Virus record (IMG/VR): IMGVR_UViG_3300013126_000068
Location: 1-43,730 of that record
DNA length: 43,730 bases
DNA from: a virus
Strand: one strand, 5' to 3'
This document shows, piece after piece, positions 475 through 17,017 of this stretch. The notes below the pieces were generated by a model, which saw only the letters and a list, made by a program, of their open reading frames with translations, made no database searches and had not been told where the DNA came from. The translations under genes and the position numbers were made by a program. The first letter of the stretch is position 1. The number at the start of each line of letters is the position of its first letter.

Positions 475-1623
475 TTATGATTTCAATAACTTTTCTATGT
501 GAGGTTTTACCATATCAAATGTTATTGATTTTGTGCATTCAAACTGTCTTTGAGTTCCCTTGTGTTCTGGACACCAGTTCCAATCTCCTCTATCGAAAAG
601 ATGTTTAGCAAAACAACCATGACATACATCTTCATTTATTATACGAATAATATCAGATTTCATTTCTTGCCATGATTCAGAAAACCCACTTATTAGTATA
701 GTTGGAACATTTAGAGCCCAAGAATACCAACTCAATCCACTTCCCAATCCAACAAAAAATTTTGCACCTTGCAATATAGAACCAACTTCTTCAAGTGTTT
801 TATCTTTTATTTTTATTACACCATCTGGTTGTTTGTTACCCATATACCCATCGGGTTCTTTTGACAATAAATAAACATCATATCCTTTTGATTTCACATA
901 ATCAACCAATTCTTGCCATCCAGTTGTATTATTCCAATACTTTGCCTGTGCGGTTGAATTGGTTGCAATACAAATATGTGGCACATCATTTTGATGTTCG
1001 GTTACATTTTTTATTTTTGGTTTAATTTCAACAAAATCCAATCCCAATATATCGGATGCAGTTTGTTGCAGTGGTATTTTTCTGAAATCTGTTTTGTTAA
1101 GATTCTTATTAAAAGTATCACCGTCATAATACCAACCAATCCTATATGATGCATATAAATCATTGACAATTGTTCCAGGATTAACAAATTCAATTTCAGG
1201 ATATACGTCTTCAAATAAATGATTCAAAAATGTTGAAACTACAACTTTACAATTCCATTTTTTTCTAAATTCCTCTGCATATGGAATCCATGCAACAGTA
1301 TCTCCAAGTGATTTTGAATCAATTATTATGTAAACTTTTTTGCCACTTGCATCGTATTTATGTTCATATATCAATTCTTCTCTTTCAAAAACTCTACAAA
1401 TATATTCTTCAAAGTATTTTTTTGAAGTTTTAGACCAGGTATTTGAATTTACAAATGAAGTATATTCTATTTTACCTTCAGAATTTACAAATTCAACTCT
1501 GTAATTTGCATTCATAATTGAATTTATTTCCAAGTAAGCACCATCAACAAAATTATTTATTATATTTGATGTTTTTCCTTTACGAATTATTTTTTCATTT
1601 TTTATTAAATTATCATATATCAT
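475..1623 (-). CDS. BAHT/TibC-like protein O-heptosyltransferase (GT9-type glycosyltransferase)
   Basis: A 382-residue protein. Its layout matches bacterial autotransporter heptosyltransferases, which move heptose from ADP-heptose onto serines of surface autotransporters: an N-terminal beta-rich domain (about 1-90), then a GT-B core with SLGDT at 105-109 (the family's catalytic Asp region), a donor-site-like GLGSGLSWYSWAL near 292-304, and a C-terminal four-cysteine cluster C334, C337, C351, C363 within CHGC, DWNWCPEHKG and QFECT. In TibC such cysteines hold an iron ion (the 'iron finger'). All four are present, so the enzyme looks intact. It starts with ATG ten bases after the upstream glycosyltransferase gene and precedes a fibre gene. 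The likely substrates are the phage's own Ser-rich fibres, which is inference; modifying host surface glycans is the alternative. Confidence 0.82.
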   Translation of the reverse strand: MIYDNLIKNEKIIRKGKTSNIINNFVDGAYLEINSIMNANYRVEFVNSEGKIEYTSFVNSNTWSKTSKKYFEEYICRVFEREELIYEHKYDASGKKVYIIIDSKSLGDTVAWIPYAEEFRKKWNCKVVVSTFLNHLFEDVYPEIEFVNPGTIVNDLYASYRIGWYYDGDTFNKNLNKTDFRKIPLQQTASDILGLDFVEIKPKIKNVTEHQNDVPHICIATNSTAQAKYWNNTTGWQELVDYVKSKGYDVYLLSKEPDGYMGNKQPDGVIKIKDKTLEEVGSILQGAKFFVGLGSGLSWYSWALNVPTILISGFSESWQEMKSDIIRIINEDVCHGCFAKHLFDRGDWNWCPEHKGTQRQFECTKSITFDMVKPHIEKLLKS

Positions 1624-1633
1624 AATTCACCGA

Positions 1634-3922
1634 TTAAAGAAAATTTTGAAATCTATATTGTTTATTTATCAATTCATCTTTTGATTTCTTATGTATAACG
1701 ATACAATTTGGGTAGTAAGATATTGAACGTATGAATAAATCATTTTTATTATTACTATAATCACTGTTTACGGAATGATTTAACTTATTAAAATAATCAA
1801 CTATGTTTAAGTGTCCAGTTTCATATCCATAAATCAATGTCTCTGGTCGCCAATAACTACATTCAATATCTTCTATTACATATACCCCACCCCAATCTAA
1901 AAGATTTTGAAAAAGATAATAAAATGATTTCAATTGATGACTTGCAACGTGACTACCATCATCAACTATTATTTGACATTTTGGTATTCGTTTTACTATG
2001 TTAGTTAAATCGTTTATATTATTTTGATCACCAATAAATGTTTCCCCTCTTTTTGATTTATTTTTTTTAGTTACACCCATTCTGTGTATTTTAGCGAGAG
2101 GCAAAAAATTTTCCCAAACAGATAAAGAATTTTCATCATCCAAACCTATTTCAAATAAATTTACGTCTTTTGCTTTATATTTGGATAATACGGTTTCATA
2201 AATTTTGTGATATTCATGGGAAATTCCTTTATCACAATTAAAGGTTTTGCATAATTCTTGAAAAGATAGTTTTTCATATTTTTCAGATTTAGATAAATCT
2301 AACATCCCTTCTCTATTTAATTTATTATTTTTTTTGAGAACATTTATTGATTGTGTAAAAATTCTGCAATAACTATTTTCATAATGTTTTTGTATTTTTC
2401 TCTCTAATATATTGAAACCACTACCATCAGAATAGTATTCGTCTATATTTTTATATTTTTCAAAAAATGATTGTAGTGTATTTATATTTCCCGAAAAAAA
2501 TCCAGTATTATATGATACATCAGAGTATGCACTATCAGTCTGTTCATAAAATACAACGTCATATTCTTCTATCAAATTATCGTGTTTTTTTATAGTTATA
2601 TCATCAATAACATAATCGTAATTTACAATATGAACATTGTGTTTTCCTAAATTTTTTGCATATCGTAATGCATTTTGAATTAAAGTGTATACTGCATACC
2701 CATGTTCATAATCAAATTGTTTATAGTGTTTTTTTCTATTATCATCAATCCACCAATAATTGTATTCTAATCCATATTTTTCAAAATCACTGTTAAATAA
2801 TAGTGGATTGTTTTTCGTATAAAGAACATGGTCACACATCGGTTGAATGTCCACATCTACCATATAATTTGTGGATAATAATTTTTCACCATCAATTGAA
2901 TTTATACAATCCATTAAAAGTTTTTTTCTATAAATCGTATCTGCATGTGCAAGTATTATGGTTAAAACATCCGATTTATTTTCCATTGATAACGATGTTT
3001 TTATTTTTTTAATATCATCATCTATATTACCGGATATGTAATTTACAATACCATCATATTCATCACCATATGATTCCAACTTTTTCATAAAAACAGGAAG
3101 TCCATATGACAATGCCTCTTTCACAACCAAAGGATTTAATTCAAAATTTGATGGAAAATAAAATATGTCAGCCGCTTTGTAAAACAAATCAACATCTTCT
3201 CGTTCACCGTGCCAAATACAATTATCTGGAAAATTTCGCATTATTGGATCCCAATAATCTCTAAAATTTTGCGCCTGATTTCCAACAAAATGAAACTTAA
3301 TTTTTTCATCTTTCATTTTTCTAGCAATATCAATCAATTCTTTTTGATTTTTTCCAGAAGTAAATAATCCAACATTTAGCACATGCAAATACGAAGAATC
3401 AAAATTCAATTCTTTCTTAGCATCATCTTTATTGTAAGAAACTGATGTTATTGGATATTCCCATATATCACACATTTCTTCACCAAAAACATCAACAAAT
3501 TTGGTTTTACTCCAAGATGATACCAATATGAATTTATCCGCAGTGTAAATAATATCGTTTGGATTTGTAGTTGAGGAATGTGTTGTTACAACTATATTAT
3601 ATCTTCTATTATCGGAATATATTTTTTCCAAATCTTCGTGTGTAATGAAAGTTTCAGGTATCTCTTGAAAATGAATTACATCTGGATCTATAGATGAAAT
3701 TATTGCATGAATGTCATTGGATGAATTGGATAAACTATAAAATTTTTCACCAAGTAGATTCGATATTCTATTTCTTTGAACTGTCAGTATTCCACCTGTA
3801 ATATCTTTGTGTTCTAAACAATACACATCGTAATCATTTTTCAAACTGTCAATTAGTTTGAAAGTATATTGTGGCAAACCACCCGTGGAAAGATGTGGCA
3901 CCACAAACAAAACTTTTTTCAC
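1634..3922 (-). CDS. Three-domain glycosyltransferase / GT-A-like / sugar O-methyltransferase
   Basis: A 762-residue protein. Residues 1-312 look like a GT4 (group 1) glycosyltransferase: an N-terminal Rossmann start with HLSTGGLPQYTF, VGLFTSGKNQKE near 185-196, and the EX7E pair E261/E269 in ELNPLVVKE. Residues about 315-540 form a second region starting VLTIILAHAD that looks like a GT-A fold sugar transferase; this assignment is weaker. Residues about 555-762 resemble MycE/CmcI-type SAM-dependent methyltransferases: EIG 591-593, GDQ 631-633, VDDGSH 653-658, GGVYVIED 678-685. It probably extends and methylates a glycan, either on tail fibres with the enzyme encoded next to it or on a host polymer. 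The start is GTG at 3920-3922 with AGGTGG just upstream. It is 25 bases downstream of the LamG gene. Confidence 0.75.
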   Translation of the reverse strand: MKKVLFVVPHLSTGGLPQYTFKLIDSLKNDYDVYCLEHKDITGGILTVQRNRISNLLGEKFYSLSNSSNDIHAIISSIDPDVIHFQEIPETFITHEDLEKIYSDNRRYNIVVTTHSSTTNPNDIIYTADKFILVSSWSKTKFVDVFGEEMCDIWEYPITSVSYNKDDAKKELNFDSSYLHVLNVGLFTSGKNQKELIDIARKMKDEKIKFHFVGNQAQNFRDYWDPIMRNFPDNCIWHGEREDVDLFYKAADIFYFPSNFELNPLVVKEALSYGLPVFMKKLESYGDEYDGIVNYISGNIDDDIKKIKTSLSMENKSDVLTIILAHADTIYRKKLLMDCINSIDGEKLLSTNYMVDVDIQPMCDHVLYTKNNPLLFNSDFEKYGLEYNYWWIDDNRKKHYKQFDYEHGYAVYTLIQNALRYAKNLGKHNVHIVNYDYVIDDITIKKHDNLIEEYDVVFYEQTDSAYSDVSYNTGFFSGNINTLQSFFEKYKNIDEYYSDGSGFNILERKIQKHYENSYCRIFTQSINVLKKNNKLNREGMLDLSKSEKYEKLSFQELCKTFNCDKGISHEYHKIYETVLSKYKAKDVNLFEIGLDDENSLSVWENFLPLAKIHRMGVTKKNKSKRGETFIGDQNNINDLTNIVKRIPKCQIIVDDGSHVASHQLKSFYYLFQNLLDWGGVYVIEDIECSYWRPETLIYGYETGHLNIVDYFNKLNHSVNSDYSNNKNDLFIRSISYYPNCIVIHKKSKDELINKQYRFQNFL

Positions 3923-3947: not shown

Positions 3948-4760
3948 CTATAATCCATATCTATTTTTTATTACATCAAAATTTTGTTGAACTTCGATTG
4001 AAGACAAAATCTTATTATACATTCGGAATATACTCATCTTTCCATCAAAACCAAAAATTCCACTATTGTTCGGGTTTATATCACCTATAATCAAATTAGC
4101 AGCAGTATTTATATTACCAAAATTTCCAACATATGTGGGACTGTCTTGAACTTCAATACCATTTCTATAAACTTTACTACCACTACTACCAACCGTGATA
4201 ACTATTTGTTGCCATGAGTCAGTTGTTGGCGATGTTACCCAACTTAATTGTGTTGGTGAGGTTGTTCCAATTCGGAATGTATATGAACTGTTTGTAAAAA
4301 ATCCAACATAACCATTTGAATTTATGGACCTTTTTGAGAATAACATATTAGGTGAACCAACTCCTTGTATAGTTTCAATTCTAATCCACATTTCTATTGA
4401 TATGGCACTCATATCATCCAATGTTGAATTATCCGATATTGAAAAACTATCAACTTGTCCAGTTAATGTTATGCTACCACCATTTAGATCAAAAGAACCA
4501 CTTTCATTTGTAGAAAATGTTGGTGTCTGAACAAGGGTTGCATCATTTGAATTATCGGTAAGGTCTAACCAATTACCACTACCAATATATGAATACGCAT
4601 CTAAATTAAGAACTAATGAACCAGTTGAATAACTTTGAGTGGTTTCTGAACCAGTTTGTTCTGTTGGTATAGATTGAGTTAGTATAAATGAACCAACACC
4701 ACCGGTGTTTTGTATAGTTAAACCACCATTACCGCCAGTATTGATTATTTTCAAACTCAT
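3948..4760 (-). CDS. LamG/concanavalin-like lectin protein, probable tail adhesin
   Basis: A 270-residue protein. The N-terminal 60 residues are Gly/Ser/Thr-rich (MSLKIINTGGNGGLTIQNTG), typical of a fibre attachment segment. Residues about 62-265 carry the pattern of a LamG/jelly-roll domain: FDLNGGSITL, then SIEMWIRI, then DSWQQIVITVGSSGSKVYRNG, then IGDINPNN, and DGKMSIFRMYNKILSSIEVQQNF at the end. Such domains bind sugars and are common at phage tail tips. Its ATG overlaps the stop of the 58-residue gene as ATGA (4757-4760), so translation is probably coupled. It is likely a small receptor-binding or fibre-tip protein. No catalytic residues are evident. Confidence 0.75.
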   Translation of the reverse strand: MSLKIINTGGNGGLTIQNTGGVGSFILTQSIPTEQTGSETTQSYSTGSLVLNLDAYSYIGSGNWLDLTDNSNDATLVQTPTFSTNESGSFDLNGGSITLTGQVDSFSISDNSTLDDMSAISIEMWIRIETIQGVGSPNMLFSKRSINSNGYVGFFTNSSYTFRIGTTSPTQLSWVTSPTTDSWQQIVITVGSSGSKVYRNGIEVQDSPTYVGNFGNINTAANLIIGDINPNNSGIFGFDGKMSIFRMYNKILSSIEVQQNFDVIKNRYGL

Positions 4761-4933
4761 TTTACATATAACTGTTGAAGTTTGTAAACAAGGTCATACA
4801 CAACTTGCACTTCTTTCCCTTGGAAAGTGCATTCCGAAATGAGTTTCAATAAAAACTCCAACTCCCCCTTTGAAAAAGGAGGAATTGGAGGTATCGGACT
4901 ATTTTCGTTATTTTCTTTTTTAATCAATGCCAT
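4757..4933 (-). CDS. Small conserved-type phage protein, function unknown
   Basis: A 58-residue protein starting MALIKKENNENS and ending KLQQLYVK. I chose ATG 4931-4933 because AAGAG lies about seven bases upstream; a longer reading from TTG at 4990 would overlap the fibre gene ending at 4975 and has no ribosome site. The C-terminal half (ELEFLLKLISE to VVYDLVYKLQQLY) is helical and resembles small proteins found next to fibre and capsid genes in marine-type phages, of no known function. The middle, SPIPPIPPFSKGE, is encoded over a short palindrome (4864-4882) that looks like a bacterial interspersed repeat. It overlaps the LamG gene by four bases, so the two may work together. Confidence 0.6.
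   Translation of the reverse strand: MALIKKENNENSPIPPIPPFSKGELEFLLKLISECTFQGKEVQVVYDLVYKLQQLYVK
4864..4882. repeat. Short palindrome CCCCCTTT-GAA-AAAGGAGG inside the 58-residue gene
   Basis: Arms 4864-4871 and 4875-4882 pair over eight positions with one mismatch and a three-base loop. Its minus-strand translation gives PPFSKGE and its plus-strand reading gives FEKGG, both familiar from small interspersed palindromes of bacterial chromosomes. It is more GC-rich than its surroundings. It may have come from a bacterial genome; that origin is inference. Confidence 0.5.
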
Positions 4934-4974
4934 AATAAAACTCTTTATTTTTTTCATAACAAATATACAAAATT

Positions 4975-6258
4975 TTATGAATATATCCAAATGTTTCCTG
5001 AATTACTATCAACAAAAATTGTTCCGTATCCAGTAGCACCACCATAAACAGGATTAGAAGCAGGATTTGCATTTCCTTCTTGTATCACACCCATATAAGC
5101 ATCCGGTGCAATAGCAGAGCCAGTTGGAGATAAATTATTTTGAAGTGCCCAACGGTCTGCACTGGCATCAACACCGAGAGCATATCCTGTTGTTGCACCT
5201 TGTTGAACAATTATACCACCATCGGTATTTCCATCAGAACCAGATGCAAATAATGCAAATTGGTCTTCAACTGTTAAGTTTGTTGTATCTACTGTTGTTG
5301 TTGAACCATTTACAACCAAATCACCACTAACAACAAGTTTATTATTTACAGTTGTTGTTGAAGCACCACCACCTATATTAACCGAAGTTGCACCAGTTGT
5401 TCCAACATTGATAGTTGTTGCAGTTGAAGTTGCAATGTTAAATGTAGTTGATGTTGTTGTAATATCACCACCGTTTACAGCCAAATCATCATTCAATGTT
5501 AATGAAGAAAATGTTGGACTGTCTGTTTGTTCTAATCCCAAATCAACAGTCGAACCTGCAACTCCATTTGTTGTGAGAACAACCGTACCTTGTGATGATG
5601 ATCCAAGTGATGAACCACTAACTGTTCCGGTTGGTAAAGCAGACTTTACACCATTTGTAAATGTTGCAGAGTTTACATCAAGAGTAATGTTTGGTGTACT
5701 ACCTTCACCACTTGTTGCAGATGATACTAAAGCACCGGAAGCAGATACAGATTGAACATAATCACCTGTTGTATCTGTTCCAAGAGCAACAGAATTGGCT
5801 TGTATAGTTGCAACACCTGTTGTTGGATTAACTAACACATCACCACTAATACCGGCATATGATGATGAATTGAAGAATGTTTGCATTGATGCAGAATTAA
5901 CATTTAGTGTTTCACCACCAACTGCGGATAAACCATCACCCGCAATATCAGTTAATAAATTTGATAATGTAATTTTCTTATTACCACTTGTTGCATCACC
6001 GGCATCATCATTTACAAAAAATTTGTCTGAACCTGCAAGTGTTGTTTTTGCAGTTGTTGGGAATGATGGTGTTGCTGTTACACCGACCAATCCACTACCA
6101 TCGCCTGTGAATGAACCCGTGAAAGAACCAGTCAATCGGGTATCAGCTTGTGTTGGTTGAATTTGTTGATTAGTACCGACTAACACACCAACCGAAGCGC
6201 TAACCGCTGCTAATTCGGCTACACTACCCGATACTATAAGTTTTTTCCACGTTGCCAT
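4975..6258 (-). CDS. Tail fibre protein with 'WKK.IVSGS' N-terminus
   Basis: A 427-residue protein almost wholly made of Ser, Thr, Gly, Val, Asn and Ala, typical of trimeric beta-structured phage fibres. It begins MATWKKLIVSGSVAELAAV, matching the fibre gene running off the left edge. Later parts hold fibre motifs: GSFTGDGSGLVGV near 47-59, DSPTFSSLTLNDDLAVNG, TINVGTTGATSVNIGG and VVSGDLVVNGSTTTVDT. The C-terminus ends in a compact tip, GTIFVDSNSGNIWIYS. The ATG start has GGAG about seven bases upstream and an AT promoter-like motif at 6289-6297. It is probably a distal fibre or fibre-like adhesin; no enzymatic domain is seen. The high Ser/Thr content makes it a candidate target for the nearby glycosyltransferase. 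Confidence 0.85.
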   Translation of the reverse strand: MATWKKLIVSGSVAELAAVSASVGVLVGTNQQIQPTQADTRLTGSFTGSFTGDGSGLVGVTATPSFPTTAKTTLAGSDKFFVNDDAGDATSGNKKITLSNLLTDIAGDGLSAVGGETLNVNSASMQTFFNSSSYAGISGDVLVNPTTGVATIQANSVALGTDTTGDYVQSVSASGALVSSATSGEGSTPNITLDVNSATFTNGVKSALPTGTVSGSSLGSSSQGTVVLTTNGVAGSTVDLGLEQTDSPTFSSLTLNDDLAVNGGDITTTSTTFNIATSTATTINVGTTGATSVNIGGGASTTTVNNKLVVSGDLVVNGSTTTVDTTNLTVEDQFALFASGSDGNTDGGIIVQQGATTGYALGVDASADRWALQNNLSPTGSAIAPDAYMGVIQEGNANPASNPVYGGATGYGTIFVDSNSGNIWIYS

Positions 6259-6281: not shown

Positions 6282-7826
6282 TTATATGAATAAATATAGA
6301 TTACTTCCTGAAATCACTAAACTACCAGTTGAACTTATCATCGGTAATTGATTGGTAGATGGTAAGACAAAGTTACCTTCAACAGCAAGACTTCCTGTTA
6401 TATTAGCAGAACCAGTAAATACTAATGTATCTGCATCAAAAAATGAGCTACCAGTAACAGACAATGATCCAGTAAATTGATGTGTGTCATCGAGAGTATC
6501 ACCAAACTTTGATGATCCAGATGCATAAAGAGTTTGTATATTTACCACCGAAGATGAAACCACATAAGTTCTTGCAGTTATAGTTCCACCTACTAAAAGA
6601 TTTCCGTCAAAATTTGCATTGGTTGCATAAAGTGTATTAAATCTTGGTGAGTCACTTTCGGCTAAACCCAATACACCCCTCTGTCCAGATCCAGATACTA
6701 TGTTTGTTCCGAATAAATGTGATAGTGTTTGTATAGAAGATGAAACCAAACCACTCGGTTTGTTTAATATATTATTCCAATAAACACTACCACTTAATTC
6801 ACCTTCGGTTACAAATCCCAAATCTTGAATTTGTTGTGAAGATGAAATAACACCACCACCGAATATACCACTAAAAAGCGGAGCAGTAACAGTTCCTTCC
6901 GATGTTAGTGATCCACTTAAAAATAATGAACCGGTAAATTGGTGAATATCATCTATTGTATCACCAAATGCAGTTGATCCAGATGCCTTTATAGATTGTA
7001 TATCAACAACTGATGATGATATTATGTATGTTCTTGCTGTAAGTGTTCCGTTAATAAAAGCATTCCCACTTAATGTCAAACCACTAGCAGATACAGTTCC
7101 AAAAATAACATCATCTGATATTCCTATCCCAATAGAGCTTCTTTGATTTGATGAAGATATTATACCGGTGTTTTCTAAAATTTGAATGGAACTTGATACG
7201 ATTCCATATGGTTTATTAACAATGGTTTCCCAAACACTTGAAGTTATGAATCCAAAGTTTTGTATTTGTTGCGATGATGATATTGTTCCCTCGGCAACAA
7301 GATTCGTCAAACCACTACCGTCACCAACAAATCTACCGTATACTGATCCAGATACAAATACGGATCCGGTAAATTGGTGTGTATCAAATATATCGTCACC
7401 AAATATGTTTGAACCACTACTAAATGATTGGGTTACATTTATTACGGATGATGAAATAATCAATTGTCTAGCAGTTAAATCACCAGTAAGAGTTAGGTTA
7501 TTAAATGTTGGTGAATCGGTTGTAGCAAGACCAAGAACTCCTCTTTGGGTAGAACTCGATATTACATTTGTTCCAACAAGATGTGAAATGGTTTGAACGG
7601 ATGATGATACTACACCATTCGGTAATGATGCCGCGCCGATATTGGTTAATTGTGAACCATCACCCTTAAAATAAAAGGCATCAACAGTTCCAGATACGGC
7701 CAATAAAGTAACAAGAGATCCAGTTCCGTCAAGTAATGTTGAATCATCAACAGGATCTGTTTGAAGTAATCTATAATACGACTCGGAAACAAATAGATTG
7801 GTTAGGTCTCTTTGTGTACTTGGCAA
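6282..7826 (-). CDS. Tail fibre protein with three tandem ~140-150-residue repeats
   Basis: A 514-residue Ser/Gly/Thr-rich fibre. After an N-terminal segment (MPSTQRDLTNLFVSESYYRL) it holds three copies of one unit starting near residues 68, 205 and 356. Each has VSSS(V/I)Q, then (S/G)xxQR, then TAR..(I/V)(I/V)SSSV, then FGD.(I/L)(D/F)D.HQFTGS. The C-terminus is a short tip, SGSNLYLFI. The start is TTG at 7824-7826: an in-frame TAA lies directly before it and no ATG fits, while GAGAG sits seven or more bases upstream. The gene follows the collagen-like fibre by 44 bases, with an AT motif at 7850-7858 between. It is probably a fibre shaft whose length is set by repeat number. Confidence 0.82.
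   Translation of the reverse strand: MPSTQRDLTNLFVSESYYRLLQTDPVDDSTLLDGTGSLVTLLAVSGTVDAFYFKGDGSQLTNIGAASLPNGVVSSSVQTISHLVGTNVISSSTQRGVLGLATTDSPTFNNLTLTGDLTARQLIISSSVINVTQSFSSGSNIFGDDIFDTHQFTGSVFVSGSVYGRFVGDGSGLTNLVAEGTISSSQQIQNFGFITSSVWETIVNKPYGIVSSSIQILENTGIISSSNQRSSIGIGISDDVIFGTVSASGLTLSGNAFINGTLTARTYIISSSVVDIQSIKASGSTAFGDTIDDIHQFTGSLFLSGSLTSEGTVTAPLFSGIFGGGVISSSQQIQDLGFVTEGELSGSVYWNNILNKPSGLVSSSIQTLSHLFGTNIVSGSGQRGVLGLAESDSPRFNTLYATNANFDGNLLVGGTITARTYVVSSSVVNIQTLYASGSSKFGDTLDDTHQFTGSLSVTGSSFFDADTLVFTGSANITGSLAVEGNFVLPSTNQLPMISSTGSLVISGSNLYLFI
6289..6297 (-). promoter_or_regulatory. Candidate promoter motif ATATTTATT
   Basis: The coding strand reads ATATTTATT 31-39 bases upstream of the ATG at 6258, overlapping the last codons of the upstream fibre gene. 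It is one of a set of similar motifs at matching distances. Functional status is inferred from recurrence. Confidence 0.3.
6417..7625 (-). repeat. Three tandem coding repeats in a tail fibre gene
   Basis: Units begin near 7625, 7214 and 6761 and encode copies of 137-151 residues (the last is shorter). The signature FGD..(D).HQFTGS and SSSV recur once per unit. Units have diverged, so this is an old duplication and not an assembly artefact. Such repeats usually lengthen a fibre shaft. Confidence 0.75.
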
Positions 7827-7870: not shown

Positions 7871-10687
7871 TTATCCAATAACTATTACCCAAAACTGAAA
7901 ACTATCAGGAGCAGAGTTAAATCCTAATGTTACATTATCATCATCATCAACTGTAACTACATATTGTTTTTGAGTATCTGCAGTATTAGCATAAGGATAT
8001 ATTAAATCACCAGTTAATTCCTCCCTCAAGTGTACCGAAACATTGGAATCATTGAGATTGTGTGTAACTTGAAATACTGTATTTAATCCATCACCAATTC
8101 TAACACTATATTTTGCTGCACCAGATGCACCAGAAGTTCCACTAGTTCCAGATGATCCAGGTAATCCAGTAAAACCAGAAGATCCTGAAGAACCACTTGT
8201 TCCGAATGTTGTTCCTGATGATCCCGAACTTCCACTAGTTCCATCGGAACCAGATGTTCCACTTGTTCCAGTTGTTCCTGATGTACCACTTGTTCCATTA
8301 GTTCCAGATGTTCCGGATGTTCCAGTAGTTCCAGATGTACCAGATGATCCTGATGTTCCGTTTATACCGGATGTTCCCGGTAAACCACTTGTACCAGATG
8401 ATCCATTAGCTCCACTTGTACCACTAACACCGGATGTACCACTTGTACCAGATGATCCCAATCCACCAGTTCCAAATGTTCCACCATCTATTATAGCATT
8501 CTTTATTGTAACTTTACAACCATCCCATTTAATATAAGATTCACCACACGTTCCAGCACAACTTCCAGTTCCATATGAACCTGATCCAAATGTTGGGTTG
8601 TATGACCCACTCCATCCTAATAAAAAATTAGATGATTGACCTAAAATAGACATATTGAAATTTGGGGGCGTTGCACCAAAATTAAATAGAGATCCACACT
8701 CATTTATCATGTTTATACTTGCATTAGAAAATGAACCACTTGATTGATTATATGGATTACCGGTATTCATTCCCCAACCAAAATTGCTTGATACATTTGG
8801 GTATAATAATGCCTGGTTTATTCCACCGTAACCAAAAGATTGTATTGCCGAGCCAGATGTTTGTGTTGATCCACTTTGTTGTATATTTGCAAATAATTGA
8901 ACACCACTGGCACTATAAGCAGAAAGAAATGTTGAACCAGTTATTATATTATCATTACCGTATATGTAATAGTTTCCACCTTCAACAAAAATGTTTGAAT
9001 CTATTGATGATAAATTTGATTCTTTTAATGTATCATTGAAGTATTGAACTTGAAAATCCCAGTATTCTAATTTATGTTTCTGTTCAAACGGTATGTAAAG
9101 CTTTACTCGATTTGGTGTAAATCCTGGATCTAAAACTTCTTTTATTTTTATGTTTTGTAATACGGTGCCATCTTGTATGAAAAATCGCAATATGCCGTTA
9201 CCGTCTCTATCTGGTTCTATTTGTATTTGATGTTTAGATTTATATCCAGGATTTTCATTGTTAGTTACATCAATATATCCAAGTTTTTTGCCATAGTCAT
9301 CTGTGTTTACAAATGCACTTCCTGATAAATATATTTCAAGTCTTGGTGATTCTTTTTGATATAAATTATCTTTCATTAGATAATCAAATTCCAATACATA
9401 AGTTGTATCTCTATAAAAAGAAGAAGTTGTTTCAATTTTTTGTTGTAAGATTGTTTTTTTATTTGGATCTAAAATTTTATCAGATGGTAAAATAGAAATA
9501 CCATTTAATGTATTGGTTGTTGTATTGAAAATAACACTTGATGTTGGAGCGCCGTTTATTGGTATAGTTTCCCAATAGTTTATAGCCGATACTGATTTTG
9601 ATCCAGATAAACCGGCATTTCTTAAAATAATAGGTTCTTCAAATGTTCCAATTTCTACATTTAGAAAATCACCATCGTCTTTCACTAAAACATTCTTTGG
9701 TGGAACATTTCCATCATATAATAGTTTGTAATCTGATCCAGGTTCAAGTGCACTTTTGCCAAAAACCTTTACACGTGAAACAACTCCAGATGATGGATCC
9801 AACCCATCAATGTTCAATTCAACATAATTGTTTATATTTTGTGTTATATTCTTTTGTGATGCATTTGCAGGATATTCAATGGTATATGGTTGTAAATTTG
9901 AATCTAATATGGATTGAAATTCACCATTTGTTCCAAATAAAAAAAGTTCATCATTTAGTCTCAAAGTTGATGAACCGATTACATCAACAACGCTTGAAGT
10001 ATATGATAAACTTGCAGTTTGGAATGATACTTTTGGTGTATAACTTTCATTTATATTTGGAAAATATATTATTGATCCAACAATTTTATCATTAAATGAT
10101 CCATTAGATACGAACAATAGAGGTTTTCCATTGTAATGGGAATATAACCCAACTCCAGATTCCGTAATAATTCTATTTGATGTGAATTTTTCTTCTATAA
10201 TAGAATACTTTTTTTCTCTTGCAGTTATTTTTGGGTTTTCTAAAAATATAATAGGTGAGTCGTTTCTGTATCTTGCATTTATAGAGTAGTTGTGGACATA
10301 CTTTATATTGTTTTCAACTATATCAGAATCTCTTAACGGGTTTAACGAGGTATCTACCCTAGATGTTCCCATGAATGTTATTGTGCAATTTCCAACTGCA
10401 ACGTCACGGTATACATGAACTGCAATAAATAATTTGTTATTATCATCTTGATAATTGATAAATTCATGGAATACTGCCTCTCCGTCAGAATCAAGAACTT
10501 CTATTAGAATTGGTCTTGATTTTACAAGATTTTTATAGTTAGGTTGTATATTAAATAGATTTTTTCCGGATGTAAAGTATTCTGGCAAACTTAATATGTT
10601 GAAAAAATTTGGAGAATTTTCCTGCGTATCAACATATGCAGTTTGTTTGTTTATTAAATCGCGTTTAATCCGTCTGTAATAATTCAT
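7871..10687 (-). CDS. Large tail fibre/adhesin with collagen-like repeat
   Basis: A 938-residue protein. The N-terminal third starts MNYYRRIKRDLINKQ and includes Ig-like beta text such as LFIAVHVYRDVAVGNCTITFMG near 90-110, similar in style to baseplate-attached structural proteins. The middle (about 370-570) looks like a jelly-roll or carbohydrate-binding segment. Residues about 740-857 are a collagen-like run of Gly-Thr-Ser/Gly-Ser-Ser triplets with rare breaks such as GTTFG. The last 80 residues (SVRIGDGLNTVFQVTHNL to FQFWVIVIG) form a C-terminal domain commonly found at ends of phage fibres. It starts with ATG one base after the stop of the recombination gene. It is probably a receptor-binding fibre; the repeat is a plausible Ser/Thr glycosylation target. 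Confidence 0.8.
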   Translation of the reverse strand: MNYYRRIKRDLINKQTAYVDTQENSPNFFNILSLPEYFTSGKNLFNIQPNYKNLVKSRPILIEVLDSDGEAVFHEFINYQDDNNKLFIAVHVYRDVAVGNCTITFMGTSRVDTSLNPLRDSDIVENNIKYVHNYSINARYRNDSPIIFLENPKITAREKKYSIIEEKFTSNRIITESGVGLYSHYNGKPLLFVSNGSFNDKIVGSIIYFPNINESYTPKVSFQTASLSYTSSVVDVIGSSTLRLNDELFLFGTNGEFQSILDSNLQPYTIEYPANASQKNITQNINNYVELNIDGLDPSSGVVSRVKVFGKSALEPGSDYKLLYDGNVPPKNVLVKDDGDFLNVEIGTFEEPIILRNAGLSGSKSVSAINYWETIPINGAPTSSVIFNTTTNTLNGISILPSDKILDPNKKTILQQKIETTSSFYRDTTYVLEFDYLMKDNLYQKESPRLEIYLSGSAFVNTDDYGKKLGYIDVTNNENPGYKSKHQIQIEPDRDGNGILRFFIQDGTVLQNIKIKEVLDPGFTPNRVKLYIPFEQKHKLEYWDFQVQYFNDTLKESNLSSIDSNIFVEGGNYYIYGNDNIITGSTFLSAYSASGVQLFANIQQSGSTQTSGSAIQSFGYGGINQALLYPNVSSNFGWGMNTGNPYNQSSGSFSNASINMINECGSLFNFGATPPNFNMSILGQSSNFLLGWSGSYNPTFGSGSYGTGSCAGTCGESYIKWDGCKVTIKNAIIDGGTFGTGGLGSSGTSGTSGVSGTSGANGSSGTSGLPGTSGINGTSGSSGTSGTTGTSGTSGTNGTSGTSGTTGTSGTSGSDGTSGSSGSSGTTFGTSGSSGSSGFTGLPGSSGTSGTSGASGAAKYSVRIGDGLNTVFQVTHNLNDSNVSVHLREELTGDLIYPYANTADTQKQYVVTVDDDDNVTLGFNSAPDSFQFWVIVIG
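8117..8470 (-). repeat. Collagen-like Gly-X-Y triplet repeat
   Basis: Degenerate nine-base units encode about 118 residues of Gly-(Thr/Ser)-Ser type triplets, with occasional GLPG and GING. Collagen-like repeats form trimeric stalks in phage fibres. Proline is scarce and Ser/Thr dominates, unlike animal collagen. Units vary in sequence, so the tract may have changed in length by recombination. Confidence 0.85.
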
Positions 10688-10688
10688 C

Positions 10689-13600
10689 CTATGTCTCTAT
10701 TTTAGAAAAACCATTTTCTTTTTTAATCTCAATGTGATTATCAACCATGTCACGAACACTATCTATGTGTGATATAAGTATGACAAACTCAAATTGTGTT
10801 TTCAAATACTCCATGAACAGAGAGAAGTTTGCCATAACTGTTGGATCAAGAACACCCAATCCTTCATCTATTGCAATAAAGTTTGGTCTTGGTAAAGACG
10901 AAACTTGTATCAATGCTGTTCTTATGGCAAGTGATGAAATAAATTTTTCCATACCACTTGACAATTCTAAATTCCAAAAACGGTCATCGTCATATACTAT
11001 GTATGTATTGATACTCTTTCCGTCTGTATCAAATAGAACTTGGAAATCAACCACATTTGCCAATATATTATTTGTTTCTTCCTGAATACTTGGCAAAGCA
11101 TTACTTATCAATTCATACGGAACACCGTTTCTATTTACTGCTTTCAAATAATAATCGTATGCCTCATATTCTTTTTCAAGGTCTTTCAACTTTCGTATAG
11201 ATACTTCACATTCGTCTATTACTTTCTCACTAACCTTTACATTGCCATTATACTCTAAAATACTTCCATCAATCTTCTTCAATTCAATTTTTGATAGATT
11301 ATTTTTTTCATTTTCTAATTCATCAATTTCTTTTTGAATTTTATTATTCTGATTGATTGCGTCCTCATTTTCTTTATACTTTTCAATCTGAATATCTATG
11401 TTACTTATTTCATCCGTTATCTTTTTCTGTTCTTCTTTTGCAGAAAATATCTGTTTTTCTATCGAATATATCTGTTTTTCGTATTTGAAAGCACTATTTT
11501 CAATAGAGTGTAATTTTTCCAATTCAGAATAAACGGATGAATTTTTTGTAAATTCTGTGTTCAAATCATTTAATTCAAAATCTAATTCATCTCTGTCTTG
11601 TTGAAATCCCCAAATCTGTGATTTTGCTCTTTCTGCATCCTTAACAAATACATTATTTACACAAAACTCACAGTTTGGATCATACTCATGGTCTTTCAAA
11701 TTATCAATTTTATCTTGACAATGTTGAACTTTCAACTTTACACTACGCAAATCAGCTTCAAGTTCAGTTATTCTGTTACGAACAATGTCAATTCTTTCTT
11801 TTCTTAACATCAGAGTTTCTTTATCAAACTCTTTCGATAAACCAAGATACTTTGAGTGTGATGTCTTAGCATCATCTAATTCATCTTCTAATGATTTTAT
11901 TTCATTTATTAAATCATTATACTTTCTATCTAATAAATATCTCTTATCCAATAATGATTGGACAGATTTGGAAGAAAAATTGTCTCCAATCGGAATTAGT
12001 TTTTTATTCAATTCTGAAATGGAAACCGTTAATTTTTCTATTTTTTTCTCAATATAACCCTTTTGGTCAGTTGTTTCTTCCAAAAGTATTTTATTTGCCT
12101 TATGAATACCAATGGCATCTGATAATCTCGTTGAATGGTCTTGTTTCTTAAACTCCTTGACTAATGCCTGCAGCCCCTTTACTTCATCCGTAGCAATACT
12201 GTTTAATTCCTCGAATAAATTTAAGTCAAAGAATTGTGCCAACAAATCCTTTCTGTCCTTTTGTGCCTTATCCACAAAGTTTGTATTATTACCTTGTAGT
12301 GACATTGCAGTTAGGACAAAATCATCATAAGTTCCAATATACTTCCGTATGGCGTAATTAGTTCCGTCACGGTCTTCGCCGTTGAGTGATACCAAGTCAC
12401 CGTTTTCTTCACACCAAAAATCTACATTAACTTTTACATTCCCTTTCTTTTCTTTTGTGGCAACTCTCTTTATGTAAAAGTTTTTCTCACCAATCATAAA
12501 ATGTAATTTACATTGAAAGTTATCTTTCTTATTATTTAGAACTTGTGCTGCCTTGAATGTTCTTGAGCATTTGTCAAATAGACAAAACATAATTGCATCA
12601 AGAACAGAAGACTTACCACTTGCATTTGGGGCAAACAATCCGTATATCCCATTCATTCCATCGAATTGTATTCTGTTACCCTTTCCATATGAAAACATAT
12701 TTTCAAATTCAAATGAAATTGGTTTCCATATAAGGTTACGGACAACATCACTTTCTGATAATTTAGTGTTTACATTTCTGTTTATACCTCTAATCTTTTC
12801 AAGTATATCGTCTGTTACTGTAAACTTATCATTTACATAATTCGTAATAAGTTTGTTTTGATATTCAACATCACGAATTTTACCAATTGGATTTACTTTT
12901 GTTTGAACATTGCCATTACTTGAACCAACAAGATGTTGTGTTCTAATATCTATAACATTCGTCAATGACTTTAATTCAGTCATTATTTGATTTACTTCGG
13001 AATGTGGTGTGTTGGTTATACGCAAACGAATTGAATTATTCTTTGTCCACTTTGTTGGCAACTTTTTAATCTTACCGTTTTCAACATCAATCGTATGATA
13101 AGACCAATCATTTTCAATTTCAATAAACTTTGATTTCTTATTCTTAATATCCCATTCAATAATACCGTGAACTAAACCTTCACCGTAGTTTTGTTGTATG
13201 AGTGAACCTGCATAAGCAAACTTACCATCAACATCAAGATATTGAAACTTGTGAATATCCCCAAACATACCATAGTCGAACCCATCAAACATTTCAATCT
13301 TTACATCATTGTGTTTCATAAGAACACCAGTATCGGTTGATGCCCTATCAACCGGTCCGTGATATAATACTATTTTTGCTCTATCACTTTGAACATCATT
13401 TGATAAAATAAAGTCTTTTGGATTTTCGTAAACAGAATTAAGAACAAAATCAACATTCTCCAATGAGTATACACCACTTTGTTTTAGATAAAATAATTCA
13501 TTCATTTCACCATTTATCAATGAAACAATAGGTGAAAGTGCATCCATTCTACTCATGTTATTTAAGTTACAATCGTGATTACCTGCAATCAAAATGGTTG

Positions 13601-13868
13601 GTGCAATTCTGGAAAGTGTATCAAGAAAATCAGTTACCATATCAACCAGTTCTGGCGTCATGTCTGTTTTTGCATGAACAATGTCACCTGCAAGATATAT
13701 GATAGTATTTTTATTTTCTTTTACTTTATTTTCACAAATATCATAAAGTTTTTTGAACACACTTCTATATTCATCATGTCTTTTTAGATTACGAATGTGA
13801 ACATCAGCAATATGTAGTATGGTATCAACACGGGAAAGTCCGCCTGCCCATAATGTTTCTTTAAGCAT
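10689..13868 (-). CDS. Fused Mre11/SbcD-like nuclease and Rad50/SbcC-like ATPase (gp47-gp46 fusion)
   Basis: A 1059-residue protein combining two proteins that are separate in T4. The N-terminal ~345 residues are a metallophosphoesterase: HIADVH (D22, H24), AGDIVH (D62), AGNHD (96-99), LYHGP near 168 and GDIHKF near 203. From about 380 it is an SMC-like ATPase: Walker A in FAPNASGKSS near 410, long coiled coils, a zinc hook CEFC near 735, the ABC signature region LSSGMEKF near 970, Walker B FIAIDEGLGVLD near 1000 and a switch His in ISHID. It should process DNA ends for recombination-dependent replication. All key motifs are present. Its ATG overlaps the primase gene by eight bases. The single-chain arrangement fixes 1:1 stoichiometry. 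Confidence 0.93.
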   Translation of the reverse strand: MLKETLWAGGLSRVDTILHIADVHIRNLKRHDEYRSVFKKLYDICENKVKENKNTIIYLAGDIVHAKTDMTPELVDMVTDFLDTLSRIAPTILIAGNHDCNLNNMSRMDALSPIVSLINGEMNELFYLKQSGVYSLENVDFVLNSVYENPKDFILSNDVQSDRAKIVLYHGPVDRASTDTGVLMKHNDVKIEMFDGFDYGMFGDIHKFQYLDVDGKFAYAGSLIQQNYGEGLVHGIIEWDIKNKKSKFIEIENDWSYHTIDVENGKIKKLPTKWTKNNSIRLRITNTPHSEVNQIMTELKSLTNVIDIRTQHLVGSSNGNVQTKVNPIGKIRDVEYQNKLITNYVNDKFTVTDDILEKIRGINRNVNTKLSESDVVRNLIWKPISFEFENMFSYGKGNRIQFDGMNGIYGLFAPNASGKSSVLDAIMFCLFDKCSRTFKAAQVLNNKKDNFQCKLHFMIGEKNFYIKRVATKEKKGNVKVNVDFWCEENGDLVSLNGEDRDGTNYAIRKYIGTYDDFVLTAMSLQGNNTNFVDKAQKDRKDLLAQFFDLNLFEELNSIATDEVKGLQALVKEFKKQDHSTRLSDAIGIHKANKILLEETTDQKGYIEKKIEKLTVSISELNKKLIPIGDNFSSKSVQSLLDKRYLLDRKYNDLINEIKSLEDELDDAKTSHSKYLGLSKEFDKETLMLRKERIDIVRNRITELEADLRSVKLKVQHCQDKIDNLKDHEYDPNCEFCVNNVFVKDAERAKSQIWGFQQDRDELDFELNDLNTEFTKNSSVYSELEKLHSIENSAFKYEKQIYSIEKQIFSAKEEQKKITDEISNIDIQIEKYKENEDAINQNNKIQKEIDELENEKNNLSKIELKKIDGSILEYNGNVKVSEKVIDECEVSIRKLKDLEKEYEAYDYYLKAVNRNGVPYELISNALPSIQEETNNILANVVDFQVLFDTDGKSINTYIVYDDDRFWNLELSSGMEKFISSLAIRTALIQVSSLPRPNFIAIDEGLGVLDPTVMANFSLFMEYLKTQFEFVILISHIDSVRDMVDNHIEIKKENGFSKIET

Positions 13869-14814
13869 ACAATATCCTCTGTTTAATTATATCATAACTG
13901 TCTGTTGGTGGTGTAACTGATTTCAAACTTGAAAAATCCTTGAAACCCATTTCATTTATATCTTTACTTTGCATTTGAACTATTGATACATTTATACCTT
14001 CCGATAGAATTGACGAAGATATTTTTATAGCATCCGAATAAGCATCATTATCAAGTGCAACAATTATTTTTGGTGGTTTGCGAAGTAAAATTCTTTCTCG
14101 AAGTTTTGGTTGAATTATTTTGCCAAAGAGTGGAACTACATTATATCTGGCAGTAATTGCATCAAATACACCTTCAACCAATGTTACTGGTTCATCCCAA
14201 TCAATAAAACAATCAAATCCAATAACATCTTTACTCCACTTTGGATTTTTATATTTCAACATATCTTCTTCAAATATAGAACGAGAAACAAAAAAGTTTA
14301 GATTGAAATTTTCATCATAGGATGGAACAATAATTCTGCCAGAGTAATTACCATTAGGACAATATCCAATACCATAACGCAATATATCTGTTCTACCAAT
14401 TCCTCTTGATTTCAAGTAACCCAATGCCTGTTTCATTTGCATCTTTACTTGAATATCCTTTATTCTTGGATATTCATATAAACGAATAAACTCTTTTGGT
14501 AAAACTAATTCTTCTTTTGTTTCGGTCTTATTATTGATGTATAAATTTTTGGTTTTAAGGATTTTGTTAAGGTCATCTAGGTATTGTTTACCAGCTTTTA
14601 ATTTTTTGAATAGTGAAACTATACTTCTACCTTTAGCATTACTAACCCAACAATGCCATGGATTTTCACCGTTATTGTTTACGGTTAAATCAATTTCAAG
14701 TTTTGGTTTGTAATGACTGATAAAAGGTGAGAAGAACGAATAATTGTTGCCAGATGTCTTTCTACCTTTACCGAGAACTTTCTCAACAAGAGATAACAAA
14801 TCGTAGTTTATCAT
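13861..14814 (-). CDS. DnaG-like primase with TOPRIM domain and degenerate zinc site
   Basis: About 317 residues from ATG 14812-14814; a GTG at 14820 would add two residues, and neither start has a strong ribosome site. Residues about 20-70 align in style with the primase zinc ribbon (SPFISHYKPKL to NPWHCWVSNAKGRSIVSLF), but of the usual ligands only HC remains, so zinc binding is probably lost. The central part includes LKSRGIGRTDILRYGIGYC and SGRIIVPSYDENFNLNFFVSR. The TOPRIM acidic motifs are LVEGVFDAI near 210-220 and IVALDNDAY near 250. It should make RNA primers for lagging-strand synthesis with a helicase not in this window. It overlaps the Mre11-Rad50 gene by eight bases and lies downstream of a perfect inverted repeat. 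Confidence 0.85.
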   Translation of the reverse strand: MINYDLLSLVEKVLGKGRKTSGNNYSFFSPFISHYKPKLEIDLTVNNNGENPWHCWVSNAKGRSIVSLFKKLKAGKQYLDDLNKILKTKNLYINNKTETKEELVLPKEFIRLYEYPRIKDIQVKMQMKQALGYLKSRGIGRTDILRYGIGYCPNGNYSGRIIVPSYDENFNLNFFVSRSIFEEDMLKYKNPKWSKDVIGFDCFIDWDEPVTLVEGVFDAITARYNVVPLFGKIIQPKLRERILLRKPPKIIVALDNDAYSDAIKISSSILSEGINVSIVQMQSKDINEMGFKDFSSLKSVTPPTDSYDIIKQRILYA

Positions 14815-14839
14815 AACCACACTTTACGGAAAATAATAC

Positions 14840-14870
14840 TTGTAACAAATATAATAAAAATTTGTTACAA
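14840..14870. promoter_or_regulatory. Perfect 11-bp inverted repeat between resolvase and primase genes
   Basis: TTGTAACAAAT (14840-14850) and ATTTGTTACAA (14860-14870) are exact reverse complements around a nine-base AT loop. It fills most of the 50-base gap between the resolvase stop (14871) and the primase start. The stem has only two G:C pairs per arm and no T-run follows on the coding strand, so a classical terminator is unlikely. A dimeric repressor operator or an RNA hairpin affecting primase translation or processing fits better. Confidence 0.6.
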
Positions 14871-15278
14871 TTACAAGCATTCTTTTAACCATTCCTCTGG
14901 TATTTCTTTCTTTGCCCAATGCCACCCTTTCTTATCACAGTATTGAGCATAGGTTGTTTTACTACCCTTGTATAATTTAGCATTTGGATTTTGGAACACA
15001 AACCGAATGTCTATATCAGGATATTGTTGAAATATCAAATCAAATTTTAATCTGTCTGTTTTTACCCATCTGCCCTTTGTTTCAATATACATTTTGTTTC
15101 CATCCATTTTGTTTAGAACAAAATCTGGTGTATAATTGTGTTTGGTTTCTGGTTGTATGTAGGATATTTTTTCACTTTCGTAACTGAATGATTTGTTGTG
15201 TTCTTTCAACATATCGTTTACATTATCTTCCAAACCACTACGAAAACCATGTTTAATTGCAACTTGATTTCTACGCAT
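14871..15278 (-). CDS. T7 endonuclease I-like Holliday-junction resolvase
   Basis: A 135-residue protein of the phage endonuclease I family (T7 gp3), which cuts branched DNA. The PD-(D/E)XK catalytic set is visible: E17 in SGLED, D52 in YTPDFVL, and E66/K68 in YIETKGRW, with spacing close to T7 (E20, D55, E65, K67). The C-terminal YCDKKGWHWAKKEIPEEW is also typical. Length is near the T7 protein (149). It probably resolves recombination and replication junctions before packaging and would cooperate with the Mre11-Rad50 fusion downstream. Its ATG overlaps the preceding structural gene's stop as TAATG at 15276-15280, so it is translated from a tail-gene transcript. No odd residues are seen. Confidence 0.9.
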   Translation of the reverse strand: MRRNQVAIKHGFRSGLEDNVNDMLKEHNKSFSYESEKISYIQPETKHNYTPDFVLNKMDGNKMYIETKGRWVKTDRLKFDLIFQQYPDIDIRFVFQNPNAKLYKGSKTTYAQYCDKKGWHWAKKEIPEEWLKECL

Positions 15279-17017
15279 TACATATCAAACCTTACAATAA
15301 CATTCATATCAACATCGTCTCGTTTTTTTATAGCATTTGCTAATTTTGCAACAGCAACCAAATCATTTTCTCTACTATACAAACCAATAGTCGTTATGTA
15401 TGGTGTAAATGCAGAACCTGTAACATAATCATCCATAAAAACCGTGTTAATATCTTTGTCTCTCCTAACAGATGGATTCATTGTATAATTAAACTCATTC
15501 TTCTTTATTTTGCATATAATCTCATATTGATAGAAAGTAGCTGATCCTCTAAAACTACCAATAAATCCATCGGATGTTCCATTGTAATCGAAGTTGCCAT
15601 TCTGACCTAATAAAGCATTTTTATATTTTGGTCTTGGATCAGAAACAGTTACTATACCATTTTTGTAAAATATATTACCAACCCGCGATGTTCCATATGC
15701 ATATCCACTATTGTAATCATTATTTGCCAAATGTTCTATTTGATCCTGTGTTAATGCATTTGAATATATCCGTATTTCATCCAATGATCCAGAAAAATTG
15801 TGATTATCCAAACCATTACCGCTGATATAAAAATTGTTTTCGTTTTGAACCGTAAATTCCATTGTTTTTTGAATACTTGAATCTAATACACCGTTTAACC
15901 AAATTTGAAAATTACTACCAGATTTTTGGCAAACAACATGATACCAGGTATTTGGTGTTAATGTTGATGATTTTACTTCTGCTATTTCTATACCAGAACT
16001 TTGTTGGAAAGAAATTTTATGAATATCTGGTGATGAATTGTTATGTAAGAAAATATCAAATGGATATTGATTTGATTTTCTTAAAAAACTACCTGCAATA
16101 TAATCAAGAGTCGATTCATTTAATGTATCAACTCTACGCATTGTATTTTTGTTGAACAATGAATTGTAAGAAGAAGTTGGATTATATTGCTGATTGGGTA
16201 TTTTTATCCAAAAACTAAAAGCAAAATTTTTATTTTTGTGAAAATTAAATCTATTGTAATTTTTTACCTCAAAATATCCACCTTCCATTAACGCACATAC
16301 TCCGGTTGATTCGGATGTGTCTGTTGTTGGTATACCAGGAGCATAATTTATTAAATCATTATTTACAATTTTAATATAATCATGCGATGGTGAACTATCC
16401 ATTACATAGTTTGTTCTTTTATTTACAAAATTATATTCACGATATTTTTCATTAAATCCAGTGTATAATAATAAATTATTTATAGATGGAAATTTTGTAT
16501 CATCAAATGCGGTATCTCTTAAATTACCAAAAGAATCATCCACTAATGTATAGGTATAAGAAGATGAAACGGAGTTGTAATTTGTAACTCTAAATGAAGT
16601 TCCACGTATACCTTCACCAAACATATTTAGTGGAATTATCATAAGAGAACTTGATTCTGCCAAGTATGTTATTGTATTATCGTCAGTTGCTTCCACTGGT
16701 ATTTTATCTATAAAATAATCTGTGTAAAAATTATGATCAAGATAATACCACAAAACTTTTGGATCTAAACTCTGTGTTGTAAATACCCTTTCATAATTTG
16801 AAGATGATATAGTTGCTATATTACCAAAGTATTTATGATTTTCAGGATACAATACTCTATAAGTTTGCATTTTCAAATCTGAATAATTTTGTAATGGAAT
16901 TTCATGATCTGTTCTAAATTCCCATAACTTAAATGCTTGAAATGGTGATATTGTATAATCACCATGTTTCAATTGTTTGTAACACAAACTTAAAGTATTT
17001 CCAACTTGAAATGACAT
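15278..17017 (-). CDS. Structural/adhesin protein: shared module with inserted LamG domain
   Basis: A 579-residue protein. The C-terminal ~75 residues match the module shared by four neighbours: FNYTMNPSV, then PYITTIGLYSRENDLVAVAKLANAIKK, ending VIVRFDM. The N-terminal part (KLWEFRTDHEIP to YFIDKIPVEA) has no clear match to me. Residues about 242-427 look like a LamG domain: GYFEVKNYNRFNF, then FAFSFWIKIP, then NTWYHVVCQKSGSNFQIWLNG, then SGSLDEIRIYSNALTQDQIEHL. The LamG therefore sits inside the shared architecture. It ends overlapping the resolvase start by one base and follows the next paralogue by one base. It is probably a baseplate-attached receptor-binding protein. Confidence 0.7.
   Translation of the reverse strand: MSFQVGNTLSLCYKQLKHGDYTISPFQAFKLWEFRTDHEIPLQNYSDLKMQTYRVLYPENHKYFGNIATISSSNYERVFTTQSLDPKVLWYYLDHNFYTDYFIDKIPVEATDDNTITYLAESSSLMIIPLNMFGEGIRGTSFRVTNYNSVSSSYTYTLVDDSFGNLRDTAFDDTKFPSINNLLLYTGFNEKYREYNFVNKRTNYVMDSSPSHDYIKIVNNDLINYAPGIPTTDTSESTGVCALMEGGYFEVKNYNRFNFHKNKNFAFSFWIKIPNQQYNPTSSYNSLFNKNTMRRVDTLNESTLDYIAGSFLRKSNQYPFDIFLHNNSSPDIHKISFQQSSGIEIAEVKSSTLTPNTWYHVVCQKSGSNFQIWLNGVLDSSIQKTMEFTVQNENNFYISGNGLDNHNFSGSLDEIRIYSNALTQDQIEHLANNDYNSGYAYGTSRVGNIFYKNGIVTVSDPRPKYKNALLGQNGNFDYNGTSDGFIGSFRGSATFYQYEIICKIKKNEFNYTMNPSVRRDKDINTVFMDDYVTGSAFTPYITTIGLYSRENDLVAVAKLANAIKKRDDVDMNVIVRFDM

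Follow-up and report, generated by a model that had tools for sequence, protein, structure and literature searches.

We propose, with a probability of about 0.6, that a soluble phage relative of the bacterial autotransporter heptosyltransferases (BAHTs) attaches a sugar, most likely heptose, to serine and threonine residues of the phage's own fibers, chiefly their Gly-Thr-Ser collagen-like stalks. The enzyme is encoded in the window, the whole 43,730-base IMG/VR virus record analyzed here, which probably represents part of a larger phage with a contractile tail. The enzyme belongs to a large phage-type clade whose members are often fused to GT4 glycosyltransferase and methyltransferase domains.

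Family assignment and predicted fold

Bacterial counterparts of this enzyme put heptose sugars on bacterial adhesins. The phage gene occupies exactly positions 475–1623 on the minus strand, a strand left unstated in the earlier note, and encodes 382 amino acids. A chance open frame was rejected, given that the opposite, plus strand of this interval is full of stops and the product matches TIGR04414 (autotransporter strand-loop-strand O-heptosyltransferase). In a profile search this model scored 294.8 bits against a cut-off of 200 (E = 8.6e-88), with protein residues 18–378 covering model positions 9–373 of 374, the full length. The second-best model, LPS heptosyltransferase I (GT9, TIGR02193), reached 30.1 bits against a cut-off of 185.3, and all LPS heptosyltransferase models gave about 30 bits or less, far under their cut-offs. 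The best relative with a solved structure was Escherichia coli TibC (PDB 4rap, 4rb4; E = 1.5e-63).

An AlphaFold2 model of the protein, built on 58 aligned sequences, has a pLDDT of 93.4 and a pTM of 0.90. TibC superposes on residues 18–382 of this model (Z 41.6, rmsd 2.1, 357 residues aligned), whereas GT9 LPS enzymes of the WaaC/WaaF type, which have the GT-B catalytic core in common with the phage enzyme, align only from residue 88–95 onward (Z at most 20.6) and leave the beta domain unmatched. The additional domain at the N-terminus is therefore the one found in TibC; it comprises seven predicted strands over residues 20–89 (1357–1566, minus strand). Model scores and fold together rule out a plain LPS heptosyltransferase. 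The profile search and TibC overlay, both proposed as checks in the earlier note, thus uphold its assignment of the gene as BAHT/TibC-like, along with its descriptions of an N-terminal beta domain, a GT-B core with SLGD, and all four cysteines.

Residue conservation was assessed over 58 rows (44 phage, 8 phage-type bacterial, and 6 classical), with roles taken from the TibC study (PMC4358343). The SLGD aspartate D108 (codon 1300–1302, minus strand) aligns with the TibC catalytic-base candidate D110 and is invariant in 58/58 rows, as are C334, C337, C351, and C363, the equivalents of TibC C339, C342, C358, and C370. These cysteines delimit the four-cysteine finger (535–624, minus strand), for which that study describes an iron role in TibC. 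Hallmarks of the BAHT family also include bound iron, a dodecameric ring, and heptose transfer to serine. Among the donor contacts, the equivalents of T226 and K230, which contact phosphate, and of W305, which contacts heptose, are T224 (56/58, Ser in the other two), K228 (58/58), and W299 (58/58). The hydrophobic pair at the thumb tip is kept, with Y260 and M261 aligned to TibC F265 and V266.

Overall, the phage enzyme is 35% identical to TibC and differs from it at defined points. Its thumb loop is three residues shorter, and TibC P300, which the same study reports to set D,D-heptose selectivity, is replaced by glycine. At the position of TibC R286 the phage enzyme has V280 (codon 784–786, minus strand); arginine is present in 6/6 classical rows and in 0/44 phage and 0/8 phage-type bacterial rows. 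In TibC, R286 contacts adenine; PMC4358343 describes this arginine as highly conserved across the family and reports that replacing it with alanine costs the enzyme most or all of its activity. TibC is bacterial and lies beside an autotransporter, whereas the neighbors of the phage enzyme are fiber and virion proteins by Pfam and PHROG matches, with no autotransporter partner among them. Because both the adenine-contacting arginine and the autotransporter partner are lacking, we file the phage enzyme as a sister clade of BAHT, short of strict BAHT membership.

Gene neighborhood

All features described here lie on the minus strand. Ten bases upstream of the enzyme gene is a 762-residue protein (1634–3922) with GT4 glycosyltransferase and methyltransferase-like matches in Pfam and PHROG, followed by a LamG/concanavalin-like lectin-fold virion protein (3948–4760; PF13385, phrog_8510) and a small gene in the same run (4757–4990) without a family match, relatives of which occur in 3/52 loci including the window. 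Two Ser/Thr-rich proteins come next, both presumably structural and both alternative acceptors: 4975–6258 (Ser plus Thr 28%; relatives in 9/52 loci including the window) and 6282–7826 (27%; 14/52 including the window). Beyond them lies a 938-residue collagen-like tail fiber (7871–10687; PF01391, tail-fiber PHROGs), which contains our proposed acceptor stretch at 8114–8473, 120 residues that are mostly Gly-X-Y, with 36 Ser, 26 Thr, and 2 Pro. Further upstream are baseplate genes, and the baseplate-wedge, tail, and tail-fiber PHROG matches run in one direction throughout, the same as that of the enzyme gene, consistent with the tail-fiber block described earlier for this region. On the other side of the enzyme, the start of the next gene (3–428) is cut by the contig end; its relative in locus L007 continues into Gly-Thr-Ser repeats.

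Distribution, fusions, and phylogeny

Relatives of the enzyme are encoded in 321 IMG/VR stretches and in 4 of 50,697 phage records. One of the four is Microcystis phage Mel-JY01; the others are records of huge uncultured phages, and two of these are equal in length and probably represent a single phage. For locus comparisons we combined the best 80 of the 321 IMG/VR stretches, the window, and three phage records, giving 84 sequences that form 52 groups at 90% identity. Within this set, drawn from the best 80 of 321, 34/52 loci have a BAHT-bearing frame longer than 450 residues, and the long frames scanned fuse BAHT to GT4, FkbM, and other methyltransferase domains. In Mel-JY01, a single protein joins the BAHT domain to a relative of residues 320–762 of the window neighbor at 1634–3922 (41% identical); BLASTP gave no alignment between the GT4 parts of the Mel-JY01 protein and that neighbor. 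The UniProt entry A0A6J5SVC1, 'Glycosyltransferase Aah/TibC' from an uncultured Caudovirales phage, is 924 residues long and 45% identical.

A quick maximum-likelihood tree with an arbitrary root was built from 87 rows, taken from 40/80 bacterial loci and 47/84 phage sequences. A branch of length 0.79 with support 100 splits off 28 classical bacterial rows; the 47 phage rows fall on its other side together with 12 bacterial rows, the placement of L117, L003, and L004 being unsure. Seven of these 12, from Methylococcales and Polaromonas, cluster together with support 100. The tree does not support an isolated, recent capture from a host, since the phage and close bacterial sequences stand together apart from the 28 classical rows.

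Fused BAHT proteins also occur on three contigs assigned to Rickettsiaceae, Bacteroidetes, and Pacearchaeota (L105, at 1056–2171; L114; L117), which may be phage contigs placed in the wrong bins; L105 and L114 branch with phages in the tree and resemble phage contigs, and L117 does not branch in this way. A huge-phage record of 436,265 bases (G148) has two BAHT genes, at 160218–161354 and 278601–279659, in frames of 402 and 771 residues.

Association with Gly-Thr-Ser repeats

A Gly-X-Y open reading frame lies within 10 kb of the enzyme in 38 of the 52 non-redundant loci, again drawn from the best 80 of 321. None was found within this distance in the other 14, of which some have flanks cut by a contig end and seven have at least 8 kb of flank on both sides. 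Repeats were also present in 10 of 14 newly fetched BAHT neighborhoods and absent from G107, G109, G113, and G148 (one of the two G148 copies read). Among seven large phage records, with G016 covered to 140,000 of 143,336 bases and G030 to 120,000 of 120,084, the nearest Gly-X-Y cluster is at most 8 kb from the gene in six and 47 kb away in the exception, G018. The combined p of 0.001 for these records is soft, because the looser motif behind it was picked after the outcome with a strict motif, which detected nothing in W01 and a single cluster in G010, 66 kb away.

The association extends to bacteria. Bacterial members of the phage-type clade have a Gly-X-Y open reading frame in 7/9 loci, mostly adjacent to the enzyme, a count that leaves out the fused proteins of L105, L114, and L117 and keeps L111, where an opposite-strand gene separates the repeat gene from the enzyme; classical enzymes have one in 0/68 loci. 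Several of these bacterial repeat proteins carry an apparent signal peptide. Genome-wide, all matches to a Gly-X-Y DNA pattern fall in the gene by the enzyme for L115 (24/24) and L108 (7/7), and only 3/23 do so for L106. This pattern failed to pick up the repeat genes in L107 and L112, gave high values in the backwards control for the genomes of L111 and L112, and also matches 7/27 genomes with classical enzymes. In the Methylococcales loci L106 (6980–7843), L107, L112, and L115, short and apparently secreted Gly-Thr-Ser/Gly-Thr-Ala proteins adjoin the phage-type BAHT.

Sampling in the opposite direction, from repeat to enzyme, gave a similar picture. Contigs of at least 25 kb were chosen by a (GTS)4 coding pattern alone (44 of 80 loci, among the matches listed) and set against a (GPA)4 control sample (42 of 80, among the matches listed), which probably differs from the former in base composition and hosts. 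The enzyme is present in 16/44 (GTS)4 contigs, 15 of them over the cut-off, vs 0/42 (GPA)4 contigs (Fisher p = 6e-6, or 3e-5 minus two already-known contigs), all among the matches listed. It was not found in the other 28/44 listed contigs, which are fragments. Sister phages found via the recombination nuclease gene served as a further control: the enzyme was found in none of 12 distant records, several of them near-alike, and ten of these had no collagen match. Two near-alike controls of 168 and 105 kb (G087 and G094) carry short Gly-Thr-Ser runs and lack the enzyme. Absence is weak evidence either way in both the sister-phage and (GTS)4 sets, because these records are fragments.

The repeats share a distinctive composition. 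In phage loci, X is Thr in 55% and Ser in 30%, Y is Ser in 67%, and Pro does not exceed about 2% at either position; in bacterial loci, X is Thr in 73% and Ser in 20%, and Y is Ser in 63%. The (GPA)4 set, whose selection motif contains proline, has 49% Pro at X. We conclude that the Gly-Thr-Ser collagen-like repeats are the likely acceptor. The earlier suggestion that the phage sugar-coats its own particle survives in that an own-protein acceptor is the best reading, and it can be narrowed to this repeat as the best candidate.

Donor sugar

Genes related to ADP-heptose synthesis accompany the enzyme in some relatives. HldE-C-like matches occur in 15/50 records and GmhA matches in 5/50, one of which, in a 636-kb phage, is over its cut-off; a profile search for GmhB gave 0/51. 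HldE-N matches 13/51 enzyme records vs 0/23 control records, all but one of them enzyme-free. The HldE-like matches are all under curated cut-offs, and HldE models were the best match in the six scanned. An HldE-C-like (adenylyltransferase) gene lies close downstream of the enzyme in 8/52 loci and an HldE-N-like (kinase) gene in 9/52, mostly as the next two genes. Because of this placement, some phages of the clade probably make their own ADP-heptose. Together with the HldE-N contrast between enzyme and control records, the proximity of these genes makes ADP-heptose our best guess for the donor, the main doubt being the lost arginine.

Profile searches of Mel-JY01 matched neither HldE nor GmhA. 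The two families run against the 43,730-base window record, HldE-N and GmhB, gave no match, so that the earlier statement that no gene here makes ADP-heptose stands for these two. Its corollary, a donor left to a Gram-negative host, is not required, as genes for HldE-like or GmhA-like enzymes are present in several relatives, in some of them directly following the BAHT gene.

In 7/52 loci (L058, 6828–7766, and relatives), another glycosyltransferase of the GT9 type lies near the enzyme. It more closely resembles LPS heptosyltransferases I and II and is a candidate for adding a second heptose.

Discussion

We envisage that the enzyme would act during infection, in the cytoplasm, before or during particle assembly, transferring a first sugar, most likely heptose from ADP-heptose, onto Ser/Thr side chains of fiber proteins. 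The Gly-Thr-Ser collagen-like stalks would be its chief targets, and the neighboring GT4 and methyltransferase domains, fused in many relatives, may extend the sugar and then cap it with methyl groups.

The acceptor could instead be another fiber or virion protein, such as the products of 4975–6258 or 6282–7826 or the LamG protein, with Gly-Thr-Ser repeats merely marking the same tail-fiber island. The Ser/Thr-rich proteins lie near the gene, some loci have no nearby Gly-X-Y frame, and, according to PMC4358343, the acceptors known for BAHT are beta-helical and TibC acts on beta-structured passengers, not collagen-like ones. We nonetheless consider this unlikely, as it leaves unexplained both the bacterial clade members, which lie outside phage islands beside Gly-Thr-Ser proteins of similar X/Y make-up, and the presence of the enzyme in 16 of the 44 listed contigs picked by repeat. 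An equally minor share of our confidence goes to the same acceptor with another donor, in which loss of the arginine changed nucleotide specificity and ADP-heptose is not the source. The distribution of that arginine, confined to classical rows, and the mutant data for TibC R286 (PMC4358343) speak for such a change; the retained equivalents of TibC T226, K230, W305, and D110, and the HldE-like adenylyltransferase and heptose-7-phosphate kinase genes that follow the enzyme in several loci, speak against it.

Modification of host lipopolysaccharide or surface polysaccharide, leading to a superinfection block, appears less probable still. Pelagimyophage glycosyltransferases and rfaE are read in this way in PMC7029224, and PMC10747093 takes a huge-phage heptosyltransferase I as an LPS gene. 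Here, by comparison, LPS heptosyltransferase models score far under their cut-offs, the beta domain and finger absent from LPS enzymes are kept, and the enzyme tracks fiber repeats in phages and bacteria alike. Glycosylation of phage DNA, which PMC7029224 and PMC12619734 ascribe to some phage glycosyltransferases, is highly improbable, as family, predicted fold, finger, and gene context all favor a protein. Glycosylation of the phage's own Gly-Thr-Ser fibers accordingly remains our preferred reading.

A BAHT-type enzyme in phages is already on record, because A0A6J5SVC1, the same enzyme type, bears the name Aah/TibC; this name looks automatic, and no study of the entry was found in the open-license literature. 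Nor did searches of that literature bring up work that describes a BAHT from a phage or names Gly-Thr-Ser repeats as the target of one. Mycobacteriophage virion glycosylation (Freeman et al. 2023, via PMC12619734) is likewise a case of a phage sugaring its own particle; as described in PMC12619734, the sites are capsid and tail-tube C-termini, unlike the fibers proposed here. In the literature found, island glycosyltransferases of aquatic phages are assigned to host LPS or DNA, and PMC7029224 reads them, with rfaE, as LPS tools. For the large group described here, it is now possible to name an acceptor among the phage proteins, a donor pathway, and a repeat motif. If our proposal is correct, many large aquatic phages would have sugar-coated fibers, which would matter for how particles adsorb, how stable they are, and how they are recognized; phage genomes would then also supply systems for O-glycosylating proteins at a simple repeat sequence.

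In ordinary collagen, proline and hydroxyproline usually fill the role that such sugars might take over, and threonine glycosylation bears on collagen stability. More tentatively, and with less confidence than we hold in fiber glycosylation itself, the clade may be a dedicated system for proline-poor Gly-Thr-Ser rods in phages and some methane-oxidizing or related bacteria. The sugars could then replace proline/hydroxyproline or form a mucin-like brush, and the fusions could form a TibC-like ring working as an assembly line for a first sugar, a second sugar, and a methyl cap.

Other features of the window and its relatives

Adjoining the collagen-like fiber gene, positions 10689–13868 encode a single 1059-residue protein that combines a calcineurin-like nuclease domain with an SMC/Rad50-like ATPase domain, and relatives of this fusion of about equal length are present in other phages. 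In T4, the nuclease and the ATPase are two separate proteins, gp47 and gp46. In L005, the closest relative, a 2841-residue repeat frame (8335–16857) lies two genes downstream of the enzyme; we take its repeats to be RCC1-like.
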